From contig NZ_NHSK01000143.1 in the NCBI RefSeq assembly GCF_016653355.1, positions 1 through 45,006 on the forward strand: a stretch of 45,006 nucleotides of DNA. Reading direction: 5' to 3'. This document shows, piece by piece, positions 13,152 to 41,653 of this stretch; the stretch's first letter is position 1; the number at the start of each line of letters is the position of its first letter. The notes beneath the pieces were generated by a model. That model was not told the DNA's origin. It did no database searches and saw nothing but the letters and a program-made list of their open reading frames with translations. The translations under genes were made by a program, and so were the position numbers. Source of the stretch: Rhodoplanes elegans (GTDB lineage: Bacteria > Pseudomonadota > Alphaproteobacteria > Rhizobiales > Xanthobacteraceae).

Positions 13152-13271
13152 GAATCGCTCGTCGACGGACGGAGGACGGGTGTCCTCCGAGACGTGCGGC
13201 GAGCGGACCTGCACTCCGTTCGGCCGACATTCGCTCCGGAACACCCCGCCCGGAACGGCGTCAGTAGCAGG

Positions 13272-13452
13272 CGACGGCAGGTCTCCTGGCTCGCGGGTCG
13301 CTGCCGGCACCGCCTTCCCGAGGGCTCGCCCCAGTGGCTTCGGTGCAGGCTCGCCGCTCACAGTTGCGGGGGCAGCTCCGGCACGGCACCGACCCGGTCG
13401 CCCGTCTCGCGGGTGTGCCGGATCGCCGCCCCCGGTATTCCCTCTTGTCCGA
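13272..13452 (-). ncRNA. Cobalamin riboswitch upstream of DUF1636-cobW-cobN
   Basis: Read on the minus strand, the conserved cobalamin-riboswitch blocks occur in order: AGAGGGAATAC (5' end), GCTGCCCCCGCAACTGTGAG, GCCACTGG, CGGGAAGGC and GCCAGGAGACCTGCC (3' end). It sits about 120 bases before the DUF1636 start and should lower expression of that operon when adenosylcobalamin is plentiful. On the plus strand the region faces cobO, which it does not control. An exact TTGACA lies upstream on the minus strand at 13544-13539, but its -10 is poor. Confidence 0.93.
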
Positions 13453-13459
13453 CCCGCAA

Positions 13460-13485
13460 GACGTTTCGCGACATGCGAAAACGTC
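13460..13485. promoter_or_regulatory. Inverted repeat between the riboswitch and cobO
   Basis: GACGTTTCGC (13460-13469) faces GCGAAAACGTC (13475-13485), a near-perfect ten-base dyad with a five-base loop and one bulged A. It lies just 5' of the riboswitch core on the minus strand and about 120 bases before cobO on the plus strand. It could be an extra stem in the riboswitch leader or a protein operator in the divergent promoter region. Confidence 0.4.
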
Positions 13486-18672: not shown

Positions 18673-18751
18673 GCGAACCCTCCCGTCGGCTGCGCGTGCG
18701 CTCGAACAGGCCCCGGAACACCCCGCCCGGGAACATGGCGCACGCCACCTG

Positions 18752-18936
18752 ATGGCAGGTCTCCTGACTCGCGGCTCGGCGGCTTCCGCGCCGTCTTCCC
18801 GGCCGTCGTGCAGTCCCTATTCGGAGGGGGAGACTGCGGCCAGTGACGAACCCGCGCGAAAACCTCACCGCTTACAGTTGCGGGGGCAGTTGCGGCCTGA
18901 GCGCCCGCGGGCGCCGCACCGCATTCCCTTTTCACC
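18752..18936 (-). ncRNA. Cobalamin riboswitch upstream of cbiMNQO
   Basis: On the minus strand the blocks are AAAAGGGAATGCGGTG, AACTGCCCCCGCAACTGTAA followed by GCGG, GTCACTGG, CGGGAAGAC and GAGTCAGGAGACCTGCC. The GTAAGCGG version is closest to the textbook B12 box. It controls the cobalt importer in cis. The remainder of 18937-19165 shows no gene. A TTGCGC-N18-TAATGT pair on the minus strand near 18998-19027 is a weak promoter candidate. Confidence 0.94.
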
Positions 18937-19165
18937 TCGCGCCGGACCGACGGCGCGAAGAACCATCGCGGCGACATTAGGCGCACGGCGGGTTCCGGCG
19001 CAAGCACGGCCCCATCCGGTTTCGCCCGGACCGGCAGCCCCCGGGGGGGCCGATTGCGCCGGACCGGGCGCCGGGCTAAGCCCACGCGGACCTCGTCGGC
19101 CGTCGCCGAACACAGGCGCGCGGCCGGTGGGGATGTCGATCTGAGGCGACCGATTGGGCAGACCG

Positions 19166-23314: not shown

Positions 23315-24067
23315 TCAGCGCGGCGCTCCGGCCGCTTGCAGCAGGCGGCCGTGCGCGGTCGCGAGCCGCACGAAGCGCACCCCGAAGGCGGCGTCCAGCC
23401 GCTGGTCCTCGAACAGCGCGTCGGCGGTCGCGTCGGCGACGATGCGGCCTCTATCGACCAGCACGATGCGGTCGAAATGCCGGAAGGCGAGGTCGAGATC
23501 GTGCATGACGACGACGCACAGGCGGTCGCCGCCGCGCGCCGCGAGCGTCTCGACCAGCGCGAGGCGATGGCGGATGTCGAGGCTGGCGCCCGGCTCGTCG
23601 GCGAGCAGGATCGGCGGATCGACGGCCAGCACCATGGCGAGCAGCACGCGGGCGCGCTCGCCGCCCGACAGCGCCGACCACTTTCGACGACGCAGCGTCA
23701 CCAAGTCGTGGGCTTCGATCACGGCGTCGAGCGTACCGGACGGAACGCCGCCGCCGCGCTCGACGCCGAGCCGGACCAGGTCGGTGACGGTAAGGTCCCA
23801 GTGCGGCGCGAAGTGCTGCGGCACGTAGCCGATTGTCTTGGCGCGTTCGCGCGTCGGAAGAGTGGACAGCGGCGTGTCGCCGAGCCGCACCACGCCGCTG
23901 CTCGGCTCGGCCTGTCCGGCGAGCAGGCGCAGCAGCGTCGACTTTCCAGCCCCGTTCGGGCCGACGATGGCGACCGCGCCGGTCTTCGGCAGCGCGAGGC
24001 TGACGCCGGCGAGGAGGCGGGCGCCGCGCCGCTCGACCGTGACGTCGTGAAGCGAGAGCATCGTCAT
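23315..24067 (-). CDS. btuD: Corrinoid (iron-siderophore type) ABC transporter ATP-binding protein
   Basis: A 250-residue ATPase of the FecE/BtuD family. Walker A GPNGAGKST (36-44), YVPQHFAP Q-loop, LSGGERARVLLA (133-144), Walker B LLADEP (154-159) and VVMHDLDLA are all present. ATG 24067 overlaps the btuC stop as ATGA. It ends the riboswitch-controlled uptake operon, so the substrate is probably cobalamin or another corrinoid; haem or siderophore transport cannot be excluded from sequence alone. Confidence 0.87.
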   Translation of the reverse strand: MTMLSLHDVTVERRGARLLAGVSLALPKTGAVAIVGPNGAGKSTLLRLLAGQAEPSSGVVRLGDTPLSTLPTRERAKTIGYVPQHFAPHWDLTVTDLVRLGVERGGGVPSGTLDAVIEAHDLVTLRRRKWSALSGGERARVLLAMVLAVDPPILLADEPGASLDIRHRLALVETLAARGGDRLCVVVMHDLDLAFRHFDRIVLVDRGRIVADATADALFEDQRLDAAFGVRFVRLATAHGRLLQAAGAPR

Positions 24068-25056
24068 CGGCGGAGCTGCCGGGCCAGCAGGACGACGAAG
24101 AACGGCCCGCCGGCGAGCGCCGTGACGAGACCGAGCGGGATTTCTGCGGGCGGCAGGGCGGCGCGGGCGAGCGCGTCGGCCGCCGTCACCAGGGCGGCGC
24201 CGGTGAGGGCCGAGGCGGGCAAGAGGGCGCGGTGCATCGGCCCGACCAGCCAGCGCGCCACATGCGGGGCGGCGAGCCCGACGAAGGCGACGAGGCCGCT
24301 GAACGCCACCGCGAGCGCGACGACGGCGGCGCCGGCCAGCACGGCGACGTCGACGAAGCGCCGCACGTCCTGGCCGAAGCCCGCCGCCATCGTCTCTCCG
24401 AGCCCCAGGAGATCGAGCCCGCGGGCGAGCGGGGAGGTGATCACGACGCTCGCCACGGTCGCGGCGGCGAGCCCGGCCAGCACGGGCCAGGACGGCGTCT
24501 GCACGCCGCCGAGAATCCAGCTCAGCACCACCTGCAGGTTGACGGTGTCGTCGGACAGCGCCAGCATCAGGAACGAGCGCAGCGCGCCGAGCACGGCGGC
24601 GACCGCGACGCCGGCCAGCAGGAGGCCCGCCGCATCGACCGTGCCGGCGAGCCGGGCGATGCCCATCACGATCACGGTCGCGCCCCAGGCGCCGAGAAAC
24701 GCCAGCACGGCGAGCACCAGCGCCTGCGGCAGCCCGAGCGGCACCAGCAGCGCGACGCTCGCGCCGAGCGCGGCGCCGCCGGCCGAGCCGAGCAGATAAG
24801 GTTCCGCCAGCGGGTTGCGGAACACGCCCTGGAAAATGGCGCCACCGAGCCCGAGCAGCGCGCCGCAGCACGCCGCGGCGAGCACCCGCGGCAGCCGCCA
24901 GTCGATCAGCAGCTTCGCCCGCAGCGTCTCCGGCCCGGTGACGGCGGTGATCAGATCGGAGGGGCTCGCCCAGTCGTGCCCGGCGCACAGGCCGAGACCG
25001 ATCACGACGAGGAGGGCGCCGATGAGGCTGGCGAACGGCGCCGCGCGCGCACTCAC
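24064..25056 (-). CDS. btuC: Corrinoid ABC transporter permease (FecCD/BtuC family)
   Basis: A 330-residue inner-membrane permease with about ten hydrophobic segments and the FecCD family landmarks: WRLPRVLAAACCGALLGLGG, FRNPLAEPYLLGSAGGAALG, FVGLAAPHVAR and the LPPAEIPLGLVTALAGGPFF C-terminus. The start overlaps the btuF stop as ATGA. It forms the channel between BtuF and BtuD. Confidence 0.88.
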   Translation of the reverse strand: MSARAAPFASLIGALLVVIGLGLCAGHDWASPSDLITAVTGPETLRAKLLIDWRLPRVLAAACCGALLGLGGAIFQGVFRNPLAEPYLLGSAGGAALGASVALLVPLGLPQALVLAVLAFLGAWGATVIVMGIARLAGTVDAAGLLLAGVAVAAVLGALRSFLMLALSDDTVNLQVVLSWILGGVQTPSWPVLAGLAAATVASVVITSPLARGLDLLGLGETMAAGFGQDVRRFVDVAVLAGAAVVALAVAFSGLVAFVGLAAPHVARWLVGPMHRALLPASALTGAALVTAADALARAALPPAEIPLGLVTALAGGPFFVVLLARQLRR

Positions 25057-26003
25057 GGGGTCTGCTCCTGGGCGTTCGGGTGGAGCAGGGCGGCGAGGCG
25101 GACGATGCCGTCGACGGTGCGCGGCCCCGGGATCAGGAATTCCGCACGCGGCACCGTGAAGGCGCGGCCCGTGCGCACCGCCCGCATGTCGCGCCAGCCG
25201 GTGCGCGAGGTCAGCTCGGCCAGATCTTCGGCGCGGCCGGCGAACAACAAGACGTCCGGATCGGCGCGCAGCACCGCCTCGGGCGAGACCTGCGAGAGCG
25301 TCAGCCGCTCGTCGAGCCCGAAGCGGCCGCCGGCGAGCGCGACCGCGTCGGCCGTGTAGGTGCCGGGCCGCGCGACCAGCACGAGGCCGTTGCCGAGCCG
25401 TCCCGTGATCATGATCACGCGCGGCCGCGGCCGATTCTTCAGCCTCGCCGACATTGTCGCGATGCGCGTCTCCAGGCCGGTCGCGACGGCTTCGCCCGTC
25501 TCTGGCACGCCGGCGGCGCGGCCGAGCAGACGGATGTTCGCCGTCACCTCGGCGACGCTGCGCTGCATCAGCACCAGGATCGGCACGCCGATCCGCTCCA
25601 TCGGGTCGACGAGCTGATGCGCCGCCTGGCGCGACGGCGTCACCACGACGAGGTCGGGGTTCTGCGCCACCACGGCGTCGACCGAGAAGCCGAGCCGGCC
25701 GCCGACCAGCGGCCGGTCGAGCACCTCGGGCGGATGGCGCGTGTAGGCCTCGATTCCGACGATGCGATCGGACAGGCCGAGCGCCGCCACCATCTCGGTG
25801 TTGGAGGCGAAGATCGTGACGATGCGACGCGCCGGCCCGGGCAGGGTCACGGTTCGCCCGAACGCATCCACGAGCACGATCGCGCCCACCGGCGGCGGGA
25901 TCGGCCCGGCCGGGGCGGGGGCGGCCCCGACCGGGCCGACTGCGCCGACGAGCGCCGCGAGAACGCCGAGCTTCAGCGCCCCGCGGCGCGTCGTCAGCCG
26001 CAT
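25053..26003 (-). CDS. btuF: Corrinoid ABC transporter periplasmic binding protein
   Basis: A 316-residue class III binding protein. The N-terminus (TTRRGALKLG then an Ala/Val-rich stretch) looks like a twin-arginine signal peptide. The mature part has DAFGRTVTLP, RIVTIFASNTEMVAALGL and PDLVVVTPS in the first lobe, and NGLVLVARPGTYTADAVALAGG and RADPDVLLFAG in the second, as in BtuF/FecB. ATG 26003 shares one base with the stop of the receptor gene (TGATG). Substrate is inferred from the B12 riboswitch upstream. Confidence 0.86.
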   Translation of the reverse strand: MRLTTRRGALKLGVLAALVGAVGPVGAAPAPAGPIPPPVGAIVLVDAFGRTVTLPGPARRIVTIFASNTEMVAALGLSDRIVGIEAYTRHPPEVLDRPLVGGRLGFSVDAVVAQNPDLVVVTPSRQAAHQLVDPMERIGVPILVLMQRSVAEVTANIRLLGRAAGVPETGEAVATGLETRIATMSARLKNRPRPRVIMITGRLGNGLVLVARPGTYTADAVALAGGRFGLDERLTLSQVSPEAVLRADPDVLLFAGRAEDLAELTSRTGWRDMRAVRTGRAFTVPRAEFLIPGPRTVDGIVRLAALLHPNAQEQTP

Positions 26004-28168
26004 CAGAACTTCGCCTGCAGGCCGACCAGCATCTCGCGGCCCGGCATCGAGGTGCCGCAACCGCCGTTCTGCCATTTCGGATTGGCGATGCAGGGCGTCT
26101 GGTCGAGCGCGAAAAAGATCGGGTTCTCGTTCACGTCGAACAGATTGTTGATGGTGGCGAAGAGCTTCACATTGGCCGTGAGGGCGATTTCCCCGCGCAG
26201 ATTCCACACCCAGAACGGATCCTTCTGGTAGACTGTGGTGTTGCGCACCTGGCCCGGGATCAGGAGATACTCCTCGCTGGCGTACCACATCGGCCCGCGC
26301 AGCACGCCGGTGACCTGGACCAGCCAGTCCTTCCACGGCCCGCCGGTCTGGCCGAAGCGGGTGCCCACCGCCGCCTGGTACTGGTACATGCGGGTCGCCT
26401 TGTCGGTCCCGGCCGCGACCGGCGCACCCTCGTCGCGCATCTCGAAATTGTAGGCGCCGTTGGCCCACAGGCTCCAGCGCCACGTCCCGGGATTGCGGTC
26501 GAGCACCTTGAACATGTCGGCATCGGCCTGCAGCTCGATGCCGCGCACCCGGATGTCCCCCGGGTTGTTGATGTAGTCCGACGTGTTGGCAACGCCGGTG
26601 CGCGACTTGGTCGTTATGCGGTTCGAGATGGTGTTCTGGAACAGCGCGAGATCGACGCGCCAGCCGCTGCGCATGAAGGTGGTGCCGACCTCGTACTGCG
26701 CGGCGGTCTCGGGCGTCAGATCCGGATTGCCGAAGGTGCGGCCGCCGCCGACCGCCGTGAAGTCGGCCGCGAGCTCCGAGGCGGTCGGCGCCCGGAAGCC
26801 GGTCGAGGTGCCGGCGCGCCACGACCACCAGTCCAGCATCTTGTACGTCGCGCCGGCCGAGTAGGTGGTCGCCTGATAGTCCGCGGTGCGGCTCCGCTGC
26901 GCGGCGAGGTTGGGGGTCGGGTCGAGCGAGGTCTGGCCATAGGTCTGGCGCACGCCGCCGCGCACCACCACGCGGTCGTCGAACAGTTTTTGGGAGTCCT
27001 CCGTGTAGAACGCCCAGACGGCCTCGGTCTGATTGTAGTCGTAGGGCGCGATCTGGCCCTGCGAGGCGATCGGGCTGCCGGGCAGATAGACGCGGGTGCG
27101 GTCGGACCGCAGCCAGCTGTTCTCCCAGTCGAGACCGAGAATCAGCTCGTTGCCGCTCCACGGGGTGACGCGCGGCACGAAGCGGGTGCCGACGATGTCG
27201 AGATGGCGCTCGTTGCGGTCGCTCGACGTGCCCTTCACCGGGGTGTTGCCGCTGGCGATGGTCGGCGACGCCCACTTGAACACGTCGACGTCCGACACGG
27301 CGTAGGTCTGCAGCATCCAGCGCGCCCAGCCGTCCGGCACCTTGCCGTCCCAGACGACGTCGAGCGACCGGTTCCAGCGATCGTCCTGCGAGAAAATGTT
27401 GGCGGTCGAGCCGCGGAAGCCGGCGTCGTAGATGCCGTCGCTGCGGATCGCGATGTCGAGCCGCTGGTTCGGATCGATCTGCAGGCCGAAGGCACCCGAC
27501 GCGCCGGCGCGCTTCCAGGACGTGTTCAGCTCCTTGGCGCCGCCGCCGACCCGATAGTTGTCGCTCTTGCCGCCCGAGAGGCCGACATACCAGTCGACCT
27601 CCTTATAGACGCCGCCGTTCTGCGCCTTGCCGCGGATCTGGCCGAACGAGCCGCCGCTCGTCTCGAGCAGCGTGCCGGGCGCGGTGCGACCGGTCTTCAT
27701 GATGATGTTGATGACGCCGCCGATGTTCTGGCTGCCGTAGAGCACCGAGGCGGGCCCGCGCACCACCTCGATGCGCTCGACGTCGTTGGACGAGAGCTTC
27801 GAGAGATTGGCCGTGCCGGCGCGCCGGCCGTTGATCAGCACCAGCACCTGGCCCTTGAAGTCGCGGCCCTGGCCGTCGCTCGCCGCGCCGCGGATGTTCA
27901 TCGAGGTCTGGGCCGGGCTCCATTCGCTGAAGAAGCCGACGGCGTTCTCGGACAGCAGCTCGGTCACCGAGCGGGCGGCCGAGTTCTTGATCTTCTCCTG
28001 GTCGATGACCTGGATGGTCTCGGGGATCTGCTCCCGCGGCTCCGGACGGCCGGTCGCGGTGACGACCAGCTCGTCGAGGGCGACGTTCTGGGCGCGCGCG
28101 GCGTCGGCGACGACGAGCGACAGCGTGGCGAGGCCGGCCGAGGCGGCGAGATGGACGAGCCGGTTCAT
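26003..28168 (-). CDS. btuB: TonB-dependent outer-membrane receptor (BtuB-like)
   Basis: A 721-residue outer-membrane gated channel, probably for cobalamin. It has a signal peptide ending ADAARA (26), a TonB box LDELVVTAT (31-39), a plug domain with NIRGAASDGQGRDF, VLVLINGRRAGTANL, VERIEVVRGPASVLYGSQN and GGVINIIMKTG, and a beta barrel ending in a terminal Phe (GLQAKF). The TGFRAPTASEL and FATINNLFDVNENP motifs near the end are typical. It is longer than the enteric BtuB of about 600 residues. ATG 28168 overlaps the methyltransferase stop as ATGA. A zinc-regulated receptor is an alternative because of the Zur-like site upstream. Confidence 0.85.
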   Translation of the reverse strand: MNRLVHLAASAGLATLSLVVADAARAQNVALDELVVTATGRPEPREQIPETIQVIDQEKIKNSAARSVTELLSENAVGFFSEWSPAQTSMNIRGAASDGQGRDFKGQVLVLINGRRAGTANLSKLSSNDVERIEVVRGPASVLYGSQNIGGVINIIMKTGRTAPGTLLETSGGSFGQIRGKAQNGGVYKEVDWYVGLSGGKSDNYRVGGGAKELNTSWKRAGASGAFGLQIDPNQRLDIAIRSDGIYDAGFRGSTANIFSQDDRWNRSLDVVWDGKVPDGWARWMLQTYAVSDVDVFKWASPTIASGNTPVKGTSSDRNERHLDIVGTRFVPRVTPWSGNELILGLDWENSWLRSDRTRVYLPGSPIASQGQIAPYDYNQTEAVWAFYTEDSQKLFDDRVVVRGGVRQTYGQTSLDPTPNLAAQRSRTADYQATTYSAGATYKMLDWWSWRAGTSTGFRAPTASELAADFTAVGGGRTFGNPDLTPETAAQYEVGTTFMRSGWRVDLALFQNTISNRITTKSRTGVANTSDYINNPGDIRVRGIELQADADMFKVLDRNPGTWRWSLWANGAYNFEMRDEGAPVAAGTDKATRMYQYQAAVGTRFGQTGGPWKDWLVQVTGVLRGPMWYASEEYLLIPGQVRNTTVYQKDPFWVWNLRGEIALTANVKLFATINNLFDVNENPIFFALDQTPCIANPKWQNGGCGTSMPGREMLVGLQAKF

Positions 28169-28887
28169 GCGAGCCTCCACACCAGCACGGCCGACACTTT
28201 TTCCACTTCGAGGCGTGGCCCGTCCGGCCCGTGGATCAGTTGCGCGGCGAGATGGTCGCGAAGTGCCGGGCGCCGCGGGTCCTCGGGCGAAAAGCCGAGC
28301 CGATCGGCGAGATGCGTCGCGATCGCGCCGAGGTCGTCGATCGGCAGCGCGAACGTCCAGGCGACTTGCTCGATCACGTCGGGCCGGTCCTCCGGAGCGA
28401 GCCCGGCCAGCACCTTGTCGACGCCCGGCGTCGTGTCCTCGCCGTGCCACTCCGGCGGCAGGCAGGCGGCGAGGCAGAGGCCGCGCGGCCCGTGCTGGGC
28501 CGGCACGATCCACACGATCGTCCGTCGCGCCCAGGCGCGGCAGCGCGCCAGGAAGTCGGCGGGTGCCGACATGGGCGCCGGGATGTTGGCGGCCAGCACG
28601 GTGTCGAAGCCGCGCGCGGGCAGGGCGGCGTCCTGCCAGTCGCAGCCGTGCACGACCGGGCCGTCGGCGAGCGCGGCGAGCCGCGCCTGCATCACCGGCG
28701 CGGGCTCGACCGCCGTCCACGCCGCGGCGGGATCGCGCAGCGCGCCGCCGAGCTGGCCGCCGCCGGCGCCGATGTCGAGGAGATCGCCGACCGCCGGCAC
28801 ATGACGGCGGACGACCGGGGCGACTTTCGTCACGTAGTCGGAGGCGTCGATGCCGGCCGCGTAGAGGCCGAGGGGATCGATGGGCAT
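28165..28887 (-). CDS. Class I SAM-dependent methyltransferase of the corrinoid uptake operon
   Basis: A 240-residue Rossmann-type methyltransferase with motif I LLDIGAGGGQLGG (36-48), an acidic AVEP after strand two, GCDWQDAALPARGFDTVLAANIP (motif II/III region) and PEDRPDVIEQVAWTF later. The target is unknown. It is translationally coupled to the TonB receptor. ATG 28887 has only a weak Shine-Dalgarno. The frame stays open and G/C-rich at third positions (54 of 60 codons) up to ATG 29067, which has GGTGGGG upstream; that start would give 300 residues with a Cys/His-rich extension (GHACC, PAC, VPCPHH). Its role in cobalamin uptake or modification is not established. Confidence 0.75.
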   Translation of the reverse strand: MPIDPLGLYAAGIDASDYVTKVAPVVRRHVPAVGDLLDIGAGGGQLGGALRDPAAAWTAVEPAPVMQARLAALADGPVVHGCDWQDAALPARGFDTVLAANIPAPMSAPADFLARCRAWARRTIVWIVPAQHGPRGLCLAACLPPEWHGEDTTPGVDKVLAGLAPEDRPDVIEQVAWTFALPIDDLGAIATHLADRLGFSPEDPRRPALRDHLAAQLIHGPDGPRLEVEKVSAVLVWRLA

Positions 28888-29117
28888 GCGGGGCTCGTCG
28901 GCAGGGCGATGGTGCGGGCAGGGGACGGAGGAGATCGACGGTGCCGTGTCGGTCTCGGCCGCCGTGCAGGCCGGCGCCGCCGGCGGACAGCAGGCGTGGC
29001 CGAGGCGCGTGCGCGGCCGCTGGCCGGCCCCGCGCGAGGCCGGCGACAATCCGAAGCTCCGTGTCATGATGGTCCCCACCACGGCCCTGCGCGTCGGTGC
29101 GTGGCCGCGTCCTTCGA

Positions 29118-29153
29118 GTAATGTAATAACATTACACGAGAGGGGAGTGTCAA
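29118..29153 (-). promoter_or_regulatory. Internal promoter with a Zur-like operator, uptake operon
   Basis: On the minus strand TTGACA (29153-29148) is followed after 16 bases by TGTTAT (29131-29126). The -10 lies inside an AT-rich dyad, GTAATGTAATAACATTAC on the plus strand (29118-29135), with perfect seven-base arms GTAATGT/ACATTAC. From memory this matches the operator type reported for alphaproteobacterial Zur, the zinc repressor. The start site would be near 29119, some 50 bases before ATG 29067. No zur gene is in the window. Confidence 0.6.
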
Positions 29154-29417
29154 TCACGGACGGGTTGCGTCGCGGACGGCGGGCGACGTGATGGCGCAGC
29201 GGCAACACCGCGGTGGCCGGGGCGCGATGGATGGGGATGGAGTAACGACCAAGGGTCGCGCCGGGATGCGGCGCGTCGGGGCGGGCGGGCACGAGAATCA
29301 CCTCGCAGCGGGTCGTGGCACGTCACCGCGACGAGGTCGGTCCGGCCGTGCGACGCACGTCCGGCTCGGCCACCCTCGGTACACCCCGACCGACGGCTCC
29401 GCGTGTGACCACGGCTG

Positions 29418-29568
29418 ACGGCAGGTCTCCTGGCTCGCGGGTCGTGGCCCTCCGTCGCCTTCCCGGGTGCGAGAGCCCCAGTGGACCAATGACGAAAGAC
29501 TCGCCGCTCACAGTTGCGGGGGCAGCCACGGCATCCGGCCTGCGCCGTCACCGTGTTCCCTTTTGATC
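29418..29568 (-). ncRNA. Cobalamin riboswitch upstream of the corrinoid uptake operon
   Basis: Minus-strand blocks in order: AAAAGGGAACACGG, GGCTGCCCCCGCAACTGTGA followed by GCGG, TCCACTGG, CGGGAAGGC and GAGCCAGGAGACCTGCC. It is some 350 bases from ATG 29067 and 530 bases from ATG 28887, much farther than the other two riboswitches are from their genes. The space between holds a hairpin at 29342-29364 and the Zur-like promoter. Between 28888 and 29417 no separate gene is convincing. Confidence 0.93.
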
Positions 29569-29590
29569 CCGTGAGGGAACCGTCGAGGGC

Positions 29591-29620
29591 ACCGTAGAAG
29601 CCGGCTAATCCGGCTGTCAA
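29591..29620 (-). promoter_or_regulatory. Promoter candidate for the third riboswitch transcript
   Basis: An exact TTGACA on the minus strand (29620-29615) with a weak -10, TACGGT, 18 bases on (29596-29591), some 20 bases before the riboswitch. The bases after the -35, GCCGG..AGCCGGCTTC, closely resemble those after the TTGACA at 22680. Confidence 0.4.
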
Positions 29621-29676
29621 TTCGGGTGGGGGCATTCTTCCCCCGTGTTGCAGAATCGGCACGGGGCGCCCCCGCA

Positions 29677-29706
29677 TTGACGGGCCGCGCGGCGCGCCCG
29701 TATCAG
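29677..29706 (+). promoter_or_regulatory. Promoter candidate for cobL-cobE-cobM-cobB
   Basis: TTGACG (29677-29682) and TATCAG (29701-29706), 18 bases apart, about 60 bases before the TTG start of cobL. It is divergent from the riboswitch transcript of the uptake operon. No riboswitch is seen on this strand. Confidence 0.4.
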
Positions 29707-29766
29707 TCCGCCCGACCGGGCCGCGTCTCTTGGAGACGTCGTGCCCGAAGGACCGAGGACGCGACG

Positions 29767-31014
29767 TTGGATCTCCAGGCGCTCGAAACAGTGTCGTCCG
29801 AATCGCCCGCCCGCTGGCTGGCGCTGGTCGGCATCGGCGAGGACGGCGTCGATGGTCTCACCGAAGCCGCCAAGGCGTTGGTGCGCTCGGCCGCCCTGGT
29901 GGTCGGCGGCGACCGGCATCTGGCCCTCGCGGCCGCGCTGATCCACGGACAAAGCCTCGCGTGGCCGCGGCCGATGACGCTGGCGTTTCCGGAGATCGTC
30001 GCCCATCGCGGCCGGCCCGTCGTCGTGCTGGCGAGCGGCGACCCGTTCCATTACGGCGTCGGCCGCATGCTGGCCGGGATCGTCGCGCCCGCGGAAATTC
30101 TGAGCCTGCCGCAGCCGTCGAGCTTCAGCCTCGCGGCGTCGCGGCTCGCCTGGTCGCTGCCCGATCTGACGCCGGTGACGCTGCACGGAAGGCCACTGGA
30201 AACGATCATCCGCCACCTGCAGCCGGGCGCAAGAATTCTCGCGCTCTCCTGGGACGAGACGACGCCGAGAAAGCTCGCCGACCTGTTGGTGGCGCGCGGC
30301 CTGGGCGACAGCCGCATCCACGTGCTGGAGGCGCTCGGCGGCCCACGCGAGCGGGTTCGGCACGCGCCCGCCTCCGGCTTCGACCTGGAAGACATCGATC
30401 CGCTCAACCTGATCGGGATCGAGGTGATCGCGGCGGCGGACGCGACCGTGCTGCCGCTCGCGCCGGGGCTCGACGACGCGCTGTTCGAGAGCGACGGCCA
30501 GCTCACCAAGCGCGACATCCGCGCCGTGACGCTGTCGGCGCTGGCCCCGCGCCAGGGCGAGCTTCTGTGGGACGTCGGGCTCGGCGCCGGCTCGATCGCG
30601 ATCGAGTGGCTGCTGCGCCATCCCGCCATGAAGGCGATCGGCATCGAGGAGCGTGCCGAACGCGCCGCCCGCGCCGCCCGCAACGCCGCGGCGCTCGGCA
30701 CGCCCGACCTGCGCATCGTCGAAGGCCGCGCGCCGGAGGCGCTGAACGGGCTCCCGGTACCCGACGCCGTGTTCGTCGGCGGCGGCTTCTCCGACGACGG
30801 TGTGTTCGACGCGGTGTGGTCTGCCCTGAAGCCGGGCGGGCGGCTGGTCGTCAACGCCGTCGCGCTGGAGACCGAGGCGCGGCTGTTCGCGCTGTATGCG
30901 CAGCACGGCGGCGAGCTCCTGCGTCTCCAGGTGTCGCGGGCCGAGCCGGTCGGCACCATGACGGGCTGGCGACCGGCCATGCCGGTCACCCAATGGCGGG
31001 TGAGAAAGCCGTGA
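29767..31014 (+). CDS. cobL: Precorrin-6Y C5,C15-methyltransferase (decarboxylating)
   Basis: Methylates C5 and C15 of precorrin-6B and removes the acetate carboxyl at C12, giving precorrin-8x. The 415-residue protein fuses a CbiE-like half (VGIGEDGVDGL at 21-31, VLASGDPFHYGVGR at 87-100) to a CbiT-like half with SAM motif LLWDVGLGAGSIAIEWL (266-282) and FVGGGFSDDGVFDAVW. TTG 29767 is chosen because GAGGA lies seven bases upstream and the length then matches known CobL (about 413). The frame is open further upstream to 29626 but has no good start. It shares one base (TGATG) with cobE. Confidence 0.93.
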   Translation: MDLQALETVSSESPARWLALVGIGEDGVDGLTEAAKALVRSAALVVGGDRHLALAAALIHGQSLAWPRPMTLAFPEIVAHRGRPVVVLASGDPFHYGVGRMLAGIVAPAEILSLPQPSSFSLAASRLAWSLPDLTPVTLHGRPLETIIRHLQPGARILALSWDETTPRKLADLLVARGLGDSRIHVLEALGGPRERVRHAPASGFDLEDIDPLNLIGIEVIAAADATVLPLAPGLDDALFESDGQLTKRDIRAVTLSALAPRQGELLWDVGLGAGSIAIEWLLRHPAMKAIGIEERAERAARAARNAAALGTPDLRIVEGRAPEALNGLPVPDAVFVGGGFSDDGVFDAVWSALKPGGRLVVNAVALETEARLFALYAQHGGELLRLQVSRAEPVGTMTGWRPAMPVTQWRVRKP

Positions 31015-40498: not shown

Positions 40499-41485
40499 TC
40501 AGGGCACCGGGCGCTGGTCCGCCGTCGCCGGGCCGGTGGCGCAGCAGACCTGCGGTCCCGCGCCGGTCTCGACCGGCGTGTCGGGCCGCGCCGCCCAGGC
40601 CGACCACGACAGCTTGTACAGCCGCACCTTCTCGAAGCCGAGCTCCTTCAGCACGCCGAAGGTCTCCGAGGCGCGGCCGCCGGTCTGGCAGTAGACGATC
40701 GTCTCCTTGGTCGGATCGAGCCCGGCATAGAGGCGCTTCAAGTCGTCGACCGGCTTGAGCGCCATGCCGCGCGTGTCCGTCGCCTGGCGGCGCGCGAGCT
40801 TCACGGCAGTGTCGGGATCGACCCAGTTCCATTCGTAGGGGATGCTGACCGCCCCCGGCACGTGGCCGCCGCGCGGCGCGCGAACATCGCGACCGGAGAA
40901 CTCCGCCGGCGTACGGGCGTCGACGATCTGCACGTCGGCCCGGCCGAGCCGCGCCTTCAGCTCGTCGGTGGTCACCGACAGCCGCGGGTCGGGCGCGATC
41001 CGAACCGTGACCGGCGGGCGCCGCGTGTCGCCTGCTTCGAGCGGGCGACCGGCCTCGTGCCAACCGTCGATGCCGTCGTGGAAGACGACGACGCGGCGGG
41101 CGCCGAAATACTGCGCGGCCGCGAAGCCCGCATAGGCGAGGGGGCTGCCGCGATGCGCGTAGACGACGATCTCGCGCGTCAGGTCGAGCCCGGCGTCGGA
41201 GAAGTTGCGCTCGACCCGCACGAGCTCGGAAAACTCCTGCACGGTCGGCAGCCGCAGCGCGCGCTCCGCCTCGGACACGTGGACGGCGCCGGGCAGGTGG
41301 GCCTGTCGGAACGCGCTCAGATCTCGCGCATCCCACACGATCGCGCCGCGCGCCATCGCGGCGGCCACCTCGGTCGCGTCGACGACCACGGGGCCGGCGA
41401 CCGCAGTCGCGCCGACCCCGCCGGTGACCAGCGCGGAGAGGAGGAGCGATGCGAGCAGGAGAGCGGAGCGGATGACGGCGTGCAC
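40499..41485 (-). CDS. Secreted double-rhodanese sulfurtransferase
   Basis: A 328-residue exported protein from GTG 41485 with a signal peptide (HAVIRSALLLASLLLSALV, cleavage near AVAG). The first rhodanese domain (VWDARDLSAFRQAHLPGAVH) ends in VVYAHRGSPLA, where the active-site cysteine is missing. The second (IVDARTPAEFSGRD, GHVPGAVSIP) has the catalytic Cys in VYCQTGGRAS. Three more cysteines or Cys-pairs are absent apart from QVCC at the C-terminus. ATG 41590 is in frame but would bury the signal peptide and has poorer third-position bias. Thiosulfate or 3-mercaptopyruvate sulfurtransferase activity is plausible. It is divergent from the Rieske gene. Confidence 0.85.
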   Translation of the reverse strand: MHAVIRSALLLASLLLSALVTGGVGATAVAGPVVVDATEVAAAMARGAIVWDARDLSAFRQAHLPGAVHVSEAERALRLPTVQEFSELVRVERNFSDAGLDLTREIVVYAHRGSPLAYAGFAAAQYFGARRVVVFHDGIDGWHEAGRPLEAGDTRRPPVTVRIAPDPRLSVTTDELKARLGRADVQIVDARTPAEFSGRDVRAPRGGHVPGAVSIPYEWNWVDPDTAVKLARRQATDTRGMALKPVDDLKRLYAGLDPTKETIVYCQTGGRASETFGVLKELGFEKVRLYKLSWSAWAARPDTPVETGAGPQVCCATGPATADQRPVP

Positions 41486-41610
41486 GACGAGCCCCCGTGC
41501 GACAGGAGATGCGGCGCGCTTGTCGCGCGGTCGTCGCGCGTCGTCGTTGATCGAGATCAGCCCGGCCTGTGACGCTCCGCTATCGGCCATAAGGATCGTT
41601 GCGGTTGACG

Positions 41611-41653
41611 GAACATATGCACGTTATTACATAACTATCATCGAATACATATT
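41611..41653. promoter_or_regulatory. AT-rich divergent promoter/operator region, rhodanese and Rieske genes
   Basis: GAACATATGCA (41611-41621), the dyad GTTATTACATAAC (41623-41635, five-base arms) and GAATACATATT (41643-41653) lie together in an AT-rich patch between divergent genes. The first is a one-mismatch copy of the element before the ArsR-type regulator. Binding by that regulator is inferred, not shown. Confidence 0.4.

Follow-up and report, generated by a model that had tools for sequence, protein, structure and literature searches.

The window, by which we mean the whole stretch of 45,006 nucleotides of Rhodoplanes elegans DNA that was analyzed, holds a large B12 cluster (CobN, CobW, CobM and a cobalt ECF transporter) and, on its minus strand, an operon in which a methyltransferase gene is followed by genes for a TonB-dependent receptor and a BtuFCD-type importer, the whole being preceded by a cobalamin riboswitch. 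The first gene (P0001) spans 28165..29292 in its long form, that is, 376 codons from a GTG at 29292 including the stop, in a frame that is open in R. elegans and also in Rhodoplanes tepidamans. Its methyltransferase domain lies at 28165-28887 and was recognized by PF08241 barely at the cut-off (E 4.8e-4), while no NCBIfam family matched it. A search of plasmids for this methyltransferase returned two Bartonella plasmids only; within the order, matches came from 14 of 297 genomes, G218 being the only strong case (E 2e-89) besides R. elegans itself, and the remaining matches, weak and partial, were dropped.

The receptor (P0002, 26003..28168, minus strand) carries PF00593 and PF07715. It reached 124.6 bits with the TonB-B12 model TIGR01779 (cut-off 599.7), and we therefore call it the TonB-dependent receptor of a corrinoid-type operon and not BtuB; its best NCBIfam match is the hemin receptor TIGR01785 (158.5 bits, cut-off 316.85) and its best PDB match the colicin I receptor. 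A structure prediction for P0002 from a 5-row alignment gave a mean pLDDT of 33.6 and was left unused. The three genes that follow on the same strand encode a BtuF-like periplasmic binding protein (25053..26003; PF01497), which missed the curated cut-off of the BtuF model NF002894 (71.9 vs 234 bits) and has a heme binder as best and a B12 binder as second PDB match, a BtuC-like permease (24064..25056; PF01032), matched best in NCBIfam by a B12 permease model (201.8 bits against a cut-off of 461), and an ATPase (23315..24067; PF00005), which is named BtuD-like because of its position in the operon, its best NCBIfam match being a heme ABC ATPase model. All these transporter proteins stay below their NCBIfam cut-offs.

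The cobalamin riboswitch and the long form of the first gene

The riboswitch aptamer occupies 29403..29599 on the minus strand and matches Rfam RF00174 over the full model length with 125.6 bits against a gathering cut-off of 31.5 bits; the riboswitch that the earlier note had placed at 29418-29568 is contained in this match. Located 5' of it is a TTGACA (29615..29620, minus strand), part of a stretch identical in R. tepidamans (GAATTGACAGCCGGATTA), which is predicted from sequence to be the likely -35 element of the main promoter, so that the main transcript would begin 5' of the riboswitch.

Since no intrinsic terminator was found 3' of the riboswitch (in 28800-29800), control at a ribosome site was considered instead. 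A candidate is the Shine-Dalgarno-like GCGAGG with the proposed GTG start (29292-29290), together 29290..29306 on the minus strand, from which the long form of the first gene may be translated under control of the riboswitch. This stretch closes a block that is 90% identical in R. tepidamans, and both GCGAGG and a GTG in the same frame recur at the corresponding position of R. serenus. In the predicted folds GCGAGG was wholly or mostly paired in all three sequences folded, and the total fold energies were unremarkable (z -0.6 to -1.3). With ample B12, GCGAGG might be hidden by the riboswitch, and the first gene and the operon would be poorly expressed.

From GTG 29292 the frame continues without a stop across the dyad described below, so that translation need not begin near 28887. 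The evidence pointing to translation of the resulting N-terminal extension is this open frame together with gap totals in multiples of three. Substitutions relative to R. tepidamans affect 15, 15 and 16 of the 51 sites at each of the three codon positions; because they are not concentrated at third positions, the extension was rejected as a conserved protein domain, and protein-level constraint on it is not shown.

The internal promoter-like element and its probable Zur box

About 270 nt 3' of the riboswitch lies a promoter-like element, TTGACA-N16-TGTTAT (29126..29153, minus strand; TTGACA at 29153-29148 and TGTTAT at 29131-29126, read from the sequence), whose -10 hexamer falls inside the dyad GTAATGTTATTACATTAC. 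It is present as the earlier note described it in proposing a second promoter between the riboswitch and the first gene. A sigma-70 consensus scan of 28800-29800 returned no promoter; the scan misses TGTTAT because it accepts nothing but A as the second base of the -10 hexamer, and the promoter call rests on the TTGACA, its spacing and its conservation. R. tepidamans keeps the box, the TTGACA with its spacing to the dyad, and a downstream ATG (29065..29067, minus strand; MTRSFGL...), located 50 nt after the dyad without gaps, which we propose as the start codon of the internal transcript. Identity between the two species amounts to 92% in the riboswitch and 78% over the gapless 40 nt from the -35 to the dyad; it is 54%, with 54 gap columns, in the stretch from the GTG to the -35, and 58% in the DNA just after the promoter-to-ATG layout.

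The dyad itself (29118..29135, minus strand) has perfect arms, GTAATG and CATTAC, around a TTATTA centre with one mismatched pair, and hence two mismatches to its own reverse complement. With up to three mismatches allowed, a search of 6,538,588 bases located the 18-mer at a single place, and none of 100 window shuffles contained it. Exact matches to the 15-mer Zur consensus GTWAYNNWATAACAT number only two in the 6.5-Mb genome, the second one preceding a zigA-like gene. Positions 29118-29132 (GTAATGTAATAACAT) are identical in 15 of 15 letters to the aztA (pden1595) motif of Paracoccus denitrificans, one of the Zur-motif promoters reported as tested by EMSA with purified Zur (PMC5387054). A matrix built without B12-operon sites scored the dyad at 29.4; the maxima of 60 window shuffles averaged 9.6 and did not exceed 13.3, and the score of the dyad was reached in none of 200 local shuffles. 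Elsewhere the one-mismatch consensus is not very specific: 16 genomes together gave 89 strand matches, compared to 46 with the reversed control, and in three of these genomes (G294, G308 and G124) the control gives more matches than the consensus. The resemblance to an alphaproteobacterial Zur operator, which the earlier note had pointed out, is borne out by the identity to the published site and by the matrix score, and genome-wide the site stands far above background; we regard a Zur box as the very probable identity of the dyad.

That the dyad might be a functionless AT-rich palindrome arisen by chance is hardly credible. The lack of a box in 13 of 25 genomes with this receptor would fit such an origin, but the shuffles do not attain its score, the dyad is kept in R. 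tepidamans, and a box stands 5' of the same receptor in four genera.

A Zur protein, the presence of which the earlier note had asked to be checked, has a homologue in this genome: P0003 on contig C290, whose best NCBIfam match is Zur (134.9 bits, below the cut-off of 167) and whose best PDB matches are the Fur-family regulator 7dh7 (120.8 bits) and Escherichia coli Zur 4mtd (111.1 bits). Zur homologues were found in all 19 genomes searched, several of the matches spanning one stop codon; these include nine of the 12 genomes with a box at the receptor, those of Rhodoplanes, g23 and g68. In the genus Rhodoplanes, near-identical boxes precede aztC-like genes in R. elegans, G298 and G299, close variants precede zigA-like genes in R. 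elegans and R. tepidamans, and further variants precede an aztA-like operon and a ZnuD-like receptor gene in R. elegans, all of these gene names being best NCBIfam matches below the curated cut-offs. In genomes of genus g23, boxes likewise precede genes that were read, from their first residues alone, as ZnuA/AztC- and ZigA-like. Since Fur-like and Irr proteins are also encoded in the R. elegans genome, another member of the Fur family, or an unrelated repressor, might be thought to own the dyad. We judge this very improbable, for the same box class marks the zinc genes of the genus and the presumed ones of g23, and the published site matched in full is a Zur site; Fur and Irr were ruled out as owners on account of the zinc genes of the genus.

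Distribution of the box and the logic of control

Among 25 genomes with this receptor, 12 have an upstream box scoring 24-31. They represent four of ten genera: Rhodoplanes (2/3), g23 (6/8), g175 (3/3) and g68 (1/1). In another 12 the score does not exceed 9.4, and in Bartonella no upstream site scores above 20; the 13 boxless genomes include R. serenus, four Methylobacterium-type genomes, two of the eight g23 genomes and Bartonella sp. HY328, and the box was accordingly rejected as a fixed part of the operon. In the DNA examined, a cobalamin riboswitch was present in 22 of the 25 receptor genomes. Two of the three Rhodoplanes genomes and one further genome have the box 3' of the riboswitch, which suggests parallel control (either signal sufficing). 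In eight genomes, which belong to two other genera, a gap of 39-45 nt separates the end of the box from the aptamer that follows it, which suggests serial control (both signals needed). G072 is the sole box genome for which no riboswitch was found, the search covering the 2.7 kb of contig upstream; its box stands 44 bp 5' of the receptor.

We consider it probable that the R. elegans operon serves corrinoid import and is controlled in two ways, by the riboswitch and by an internal Zur-box promoter opening in zinc starvation. With sufficient zinc, Zn-Zur would cover the second promoter, which lies between the riboswitch and the coding core and has its -10 within the box. In zinc starvation Zur would leave, allowing a riboswitch-free transcript from about 29119 to be translated from ATG 29067, and the operon would open even with B12 present, as in an OR gate. 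The weakest step of this scheme is the benefit: imported corrinoid may support the cell when zinc-dependent steps fail, or may supply cobalt. The scheme builds on the Zur-class box, the Zur homologue and the layout kept in R. tepidamans; promoter activity, occupancy by Zur, the mode of the riboswitch and the substrate are what we infer.

The substrate could be a different one, if the system were mainly an importer of a metallophore or cobalt chelate for zinc starvation, with the riboswitch as a secondary brake. Such a counterpart of Pseudomonas aeruginosa PA2911-PA2914, a Zur-regulated TonB receptor with a B12-type ABC importer for which pyochelin-cobalt import has been reported (PMC4542158, PMC11481552), would be in line with the heme and siderophore types among the receptor's best family matches and with the arrangement in G072. 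We nevertheless regard it as unlikely, given the riboswitch frequency among receptor genomes, which favours a corrinoid importer in the comparative data, and the large B12 cluster that makes up the window. It is rather improbable, too, that the dyad binds Zur as a roadblock on the long transcript and is not the operator of a promoter of its own, an AND gate in which expression requires a shortage of zinc together with one of B12. The serial boxes before the aptamer in the two other genera would gate the same transcript in this manner, the sigma-70 scan found no promoter here, and the distance of 50 nt from the box to ATG 29067 exceeds the 21-24 bp seen at the genome's own aztC-, zigA- and ZnuD-like genes; against this, the TTGACA at its 16-nt spacing and the downstream start codon are conserved together with the dyad in R. 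tepidamans between flanks of 54% and 58% identity. It counts against the OR gate that a Zur dimer about 470 nt into the long transcript could itself act as a roadblock and bring the gate nearer to AND.

Relation to known systems

Zur regulons are usually viewed as comprising zinc chaperones and functions in the import and sparing of zinc. With its own Zur operator, in four genera and two layouts, a B12-type importer would provide a concrete link between zinc starvation and the supply of corrinoid or cobalt, and TonB receptors behind cobalamin riboswitches may respond to zinc as well. On homologous operons a metal repressor and a riboswitch may be coupled either serially or in parallel, which would make these operons a natural pair for the study of regulatory logic. 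We are evenly divided on a broader proposal: that alphaproteobacteria recurrently include corrinoid import in their response to zinc starvation, with the receptor-BtuFCD operon, which often has the methyltransferase as its first gene, under Zur in at least four genera by the two logics of a box before the riboswitch and a second promoter after it, and that in Rhodoplanes the second promoter, lying inside the frame of the first gene, yields two N-terminal forms of the methyltransferase.

Among the matches listed from openly licensed literature (CC0, CC BY, CC BY-SA), we found no operon described with both a cobalamin riboswitch and a Zur site, a weak negative given the partial text covered. In the same literature a link of zinc starvation to the supply of corrinoid or cobalt appears to have been proposed only for P. 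aeruginosa and for another operon, its cobalamin part being speculative (PMC4542158). The alphaproteobacterial Zur regulon (P. denitrificans aztABCD, znuABC and COG0523; Caulobacter crescentus) shares with R. elegans the operator near a start codon, identical throughout to that of pden1595, the Zur homologue, and the boxes at aztC-, aztA-, zigA- and ZnuD-like genes; it differs in that the R. elegans target is a riboswitch-controlled B12-type importer with the box 3' of the riboswitch. B12-type ABC genes of P. denitrificans were reported to rise 1.5- to 4-fold in low zinc, with no Zur motif marked in the sections cited (PMC5387054). P. aeruginosa PA2911-PA2914 is similar in gene content, a receptor with a B12-type ABC importer under Zur, and cobalamin import by it was already suggested in 2015 (PMC4542158); in contrast to R. 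elegans, the cited sections mention no riboswitch, list no methyltransferase in the operon and report pyochelin-cobalt as the substrate (PMC11481552). PA1921-PA1925 of the same species (methyltransferase, TonB receptor, CobN, ExbD; Zur-regulated) resembles the R. elegans operon, by its description in Table 2 of PMC4542158, in placing a methyltransferase gene beside a TonB receptor, but has a CobN-like protein where R. elegans has BtuFCD. Finally, btuB and btuFCD operons under cobalamin riboswitches share the riboswitch, the receptor and the ABC importer, to which R. elegans adds a putative Zur box and two Rhodoplanes add a possible second start behind the riboswitch.

A probable Zur box ahead of the methyltransferase-receptor operon

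The dyad at 29118-29135 (minus strand), which overlaps the -10 of the internal promoter-like element (29126-29153), is very probably a Zur box, judging from sequence comparison. Its bases 29118-29132 are identical to the P. denitrificans aztA motif listed in Table 7 of PMC5387054, and according to the accessible part of that paper, purified Zur shifted P. denitrificans promoters bearing this motif. A matrix built from 18 Zur sites, B12-operon sites excluded, gave the dyad a score of 29.4, compared with maxima of 13.3 in 60 shuffles of the window and 13.2 in 200 shuffles of the 821-nt leader. Two of the training sites have the dyad sequence, pden1595 on one strand and aztC of genome G299 on the other; left out of the matrix in turn, they scored 28.8 and 27.6. 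In the whole genome (6,538,588 bases, of which the window is one contig), the pattern GTWAYNNWATAACAT with at most one mismatch gave 10 strand matches at 9 places versus 1 for the reversed consensus; the dyad is at one of only two places matching exactly. Matches and control counts in five other Rhodoplanes genomes were 4/0, 3/3, 5/0, 2/0 and 5/1. A Zur homologue is encoded in this genome, as in 19 of 19 genomes searched for one. The resemblance to the alphaproteobacterial Zur operator proposed in the earlier note is thus borne out by the aztA identity and the matrix score, and both the Zur homologue and the genome-wide scan agree with it.

Besides the window's operon, the nine places include sites 23 bp ahead of a zigA-like gene, 21 bp ahead of an aztC-like one and 95 bp ahead of a globin-like one, two whose nearest called frame is 155-164 bp off and one within an open frame. 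Another, GTTACGATATAACGT (L092 1097-1111, contig C146), lies 75 bp ahead of an ExbB-like gene (PF01618, 27.4 bits), recalling the ExbB/CobN-type clusters of Zur regulons. The last, GTTATGTAATAACGT at 41621-41635 (minus strand, score 24.0), precedes both a rhodanese/sulfurtransferase-like gene (minus, 40499-41590), by 31 bp, and petA for the Rieske subunit (plus, 41693), by 58 bp. R. serenus (L066) likewise has a box in this gap; in G299 (L068) a box lies 144 bp ahead of a rhodanese gene, with a PF02579 gene on the other side. A shorter 13-base pattern, not a rare one in this genome (14 matches versus 9 in the control), found boxes at an aztA-like operon and a ZnuD-like receptor. The Zur-like box GTGATACTATAAC (L010 1501-1700, contig C80) stands before a short open frame rich in His (MTHHHHDPGHAHP...), itself ahead of an aztA-like gene; the same 13-base sequence occurs in four further Rhodoplanes genomes, the neighbour in G300 being aztA-like (190 bp).

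Riboswitch and leader layout in Rhodoplanes

The B12 region of the window comprises CobN, CobW, CobM, CbiE and parts of a cobalt ECF transporter, together with three cobalamin riboswitches on the minus strand. One (29403-29599) precedes the genes for the methyltransferase, the TonB receptor and the BtuF-, BtuC- and BtuD-like proteins. Since matrix scores above 13 occur in the window only at 29118-29137 and 41621-41637, the riboswitches at 18737-18980 and 13259-13485 are without such a box.

A genus search grouped this genome with five others, two of them identical to R. serenus DSM 18633 and R. tepidamans DSM 9987 across the 3.7 kb compared, which makes its source a Rhodoplanes-like bacterium. 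DNA identity to R. tepidamans is 92% in the riboswitch, 90% from there to GTG 29292, 54% (54 gap columns) from the GTG to the -35, 78% without gaps from the -35 through the dyad, 58% without gaps from the dyad to ATG 29067, 70% (27 gap columns) from the ATG to 28888, and 85% in the methyltransferase. The frame is open from the GTG into the methyltransferase in both species, so that the first open frame carries the box-bearing stretch in its 5' portion. R. serenus has the riboswitch but no box, and shows a GTG in frame at the corresponding position, 38 codons ahead of the aligned methyltransferase. Fold predictions for the three Rhodoplanes sequences put all or most of GCGAGG, upstream of the GTG, in base pairs. 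From the open frame, the GTG layout and this pairing we infer that the riboswitch would control translation at GTG 29292, and that the internal-promoter transcript would escape it and be translated from ATG 29067. In both boxed species, 28888-29067 would encode ACCPPxAPACTAA followed by more Cys and His residues, possibly a metal-binding leader, although its substitution pattern does not prove coding.

Distribution of the box among receptor-bearing genomes

The receptor was followed in 25 genomes: this one, R. tepidamans, R. serenus, three Methylobacterium, 13 order relatives (of 14 found among 397 genomes, a set to which this one belongs; the fourteenth is M. oryzihabitans, G218, one of the three Methylobacterium), Bartonella sp. 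HY328 (its twin HY329 left out) and five class relatives drawn from 385 genomes. A box scoring 24.1 to 30.8 precedes the receptor operon in 12 of them, namely 2/3 Rhodoplanes and, in three other genera, 6/8 of g23, 3/3 of g175 and 1/1 of g68. In 12 others the best score was at most 9.4 in the 0.9-1.5 kb scanned upstream; Bartonella had no upstream box above the threshold of 20 in 16.7 kb, and one match (22.7) inside the BtuF-like gene. Whole-genome pattern searches in 16 of the 25 gave between 1 and 10 strand matches per genome (a total of 89 versus 46 for the reversed control), and included the box of the window-type operon in eight (six g23, G072 and R. tepidamans).

Placement varies. Five g23 boxes end 39-42 nt and all three g175 boxes 44-45 nt 5' of the aptamer; in G019 (g23) the box begins 200 nt past it, 74 bp ahead of the receptor frame, and in G072 it lies 44 bp ahead of a receptor cut by the contig end. 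In a receptor tree without support values (G072, g175, G467 and G475 omitted), the two Rhodoplanes with a box and the boxed g23 genomes fall in separate clades with unboxed neighbours, which implies that the box was either gained repeatedly or lost repeatedly.

The riboswitch was present in the examined DNA of 22 of the 25 genomes; it was not found in G322 and G475 (1.5 kb upstream searched) or on the G072 contig. Rhodoplanes, Methylobacterium, G308, Bartonella and the three g175 genomes (37-41% in g175) carry the methyltransferase gene between the riboswitch and the receptor gene; the four g23 operons examined, of eight, yielded none. In two Methylobacterium a partial gene for a ZigA-like zinc GTPase (L042 6560-7429, L043 7080-7430) stands directly 5' of the operon's riboswitch; the Zur box is absent there despite this neighbour.

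Substrate and known systems

Both the riboswitches and the surrounding B12 cluster point to a corrinoid importer; the receptor and the BtuF-like protein missed curated B12 cut-offs. On the Bartonella sp. HY328 plasmid (L109 5377-13610, NZ_CP104884.1), the riboswitch, a DUF1852 gene and genes for methionine synthase, the methyltransferase, the TonB receptor and BtuFCD-like proteins are consecutive, an order that hints at a methionine link. Cells short of zinc might rely on B12 to run B12-dependent enzymes, or on cobalt as a substitute for zinc.

Every single part of this arrangement is already known; what may be new is the pairing of a Zur box with a cobalamin riboswitch on one operon. Such a pairing was not found in the accessible parts of the open-licence literature searched, where texts mentioning both "B12 riboswitch" and "Zur" handle the two separately. 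The nearest precedent is the Zur-regulated PA2911-PA2914 of P. aeruginosa, for which, in the accessible parts of the two papers, cobalamin import was suggested (PMC4542158) and pyochelin-cobalt import reported later (PMC11481552).
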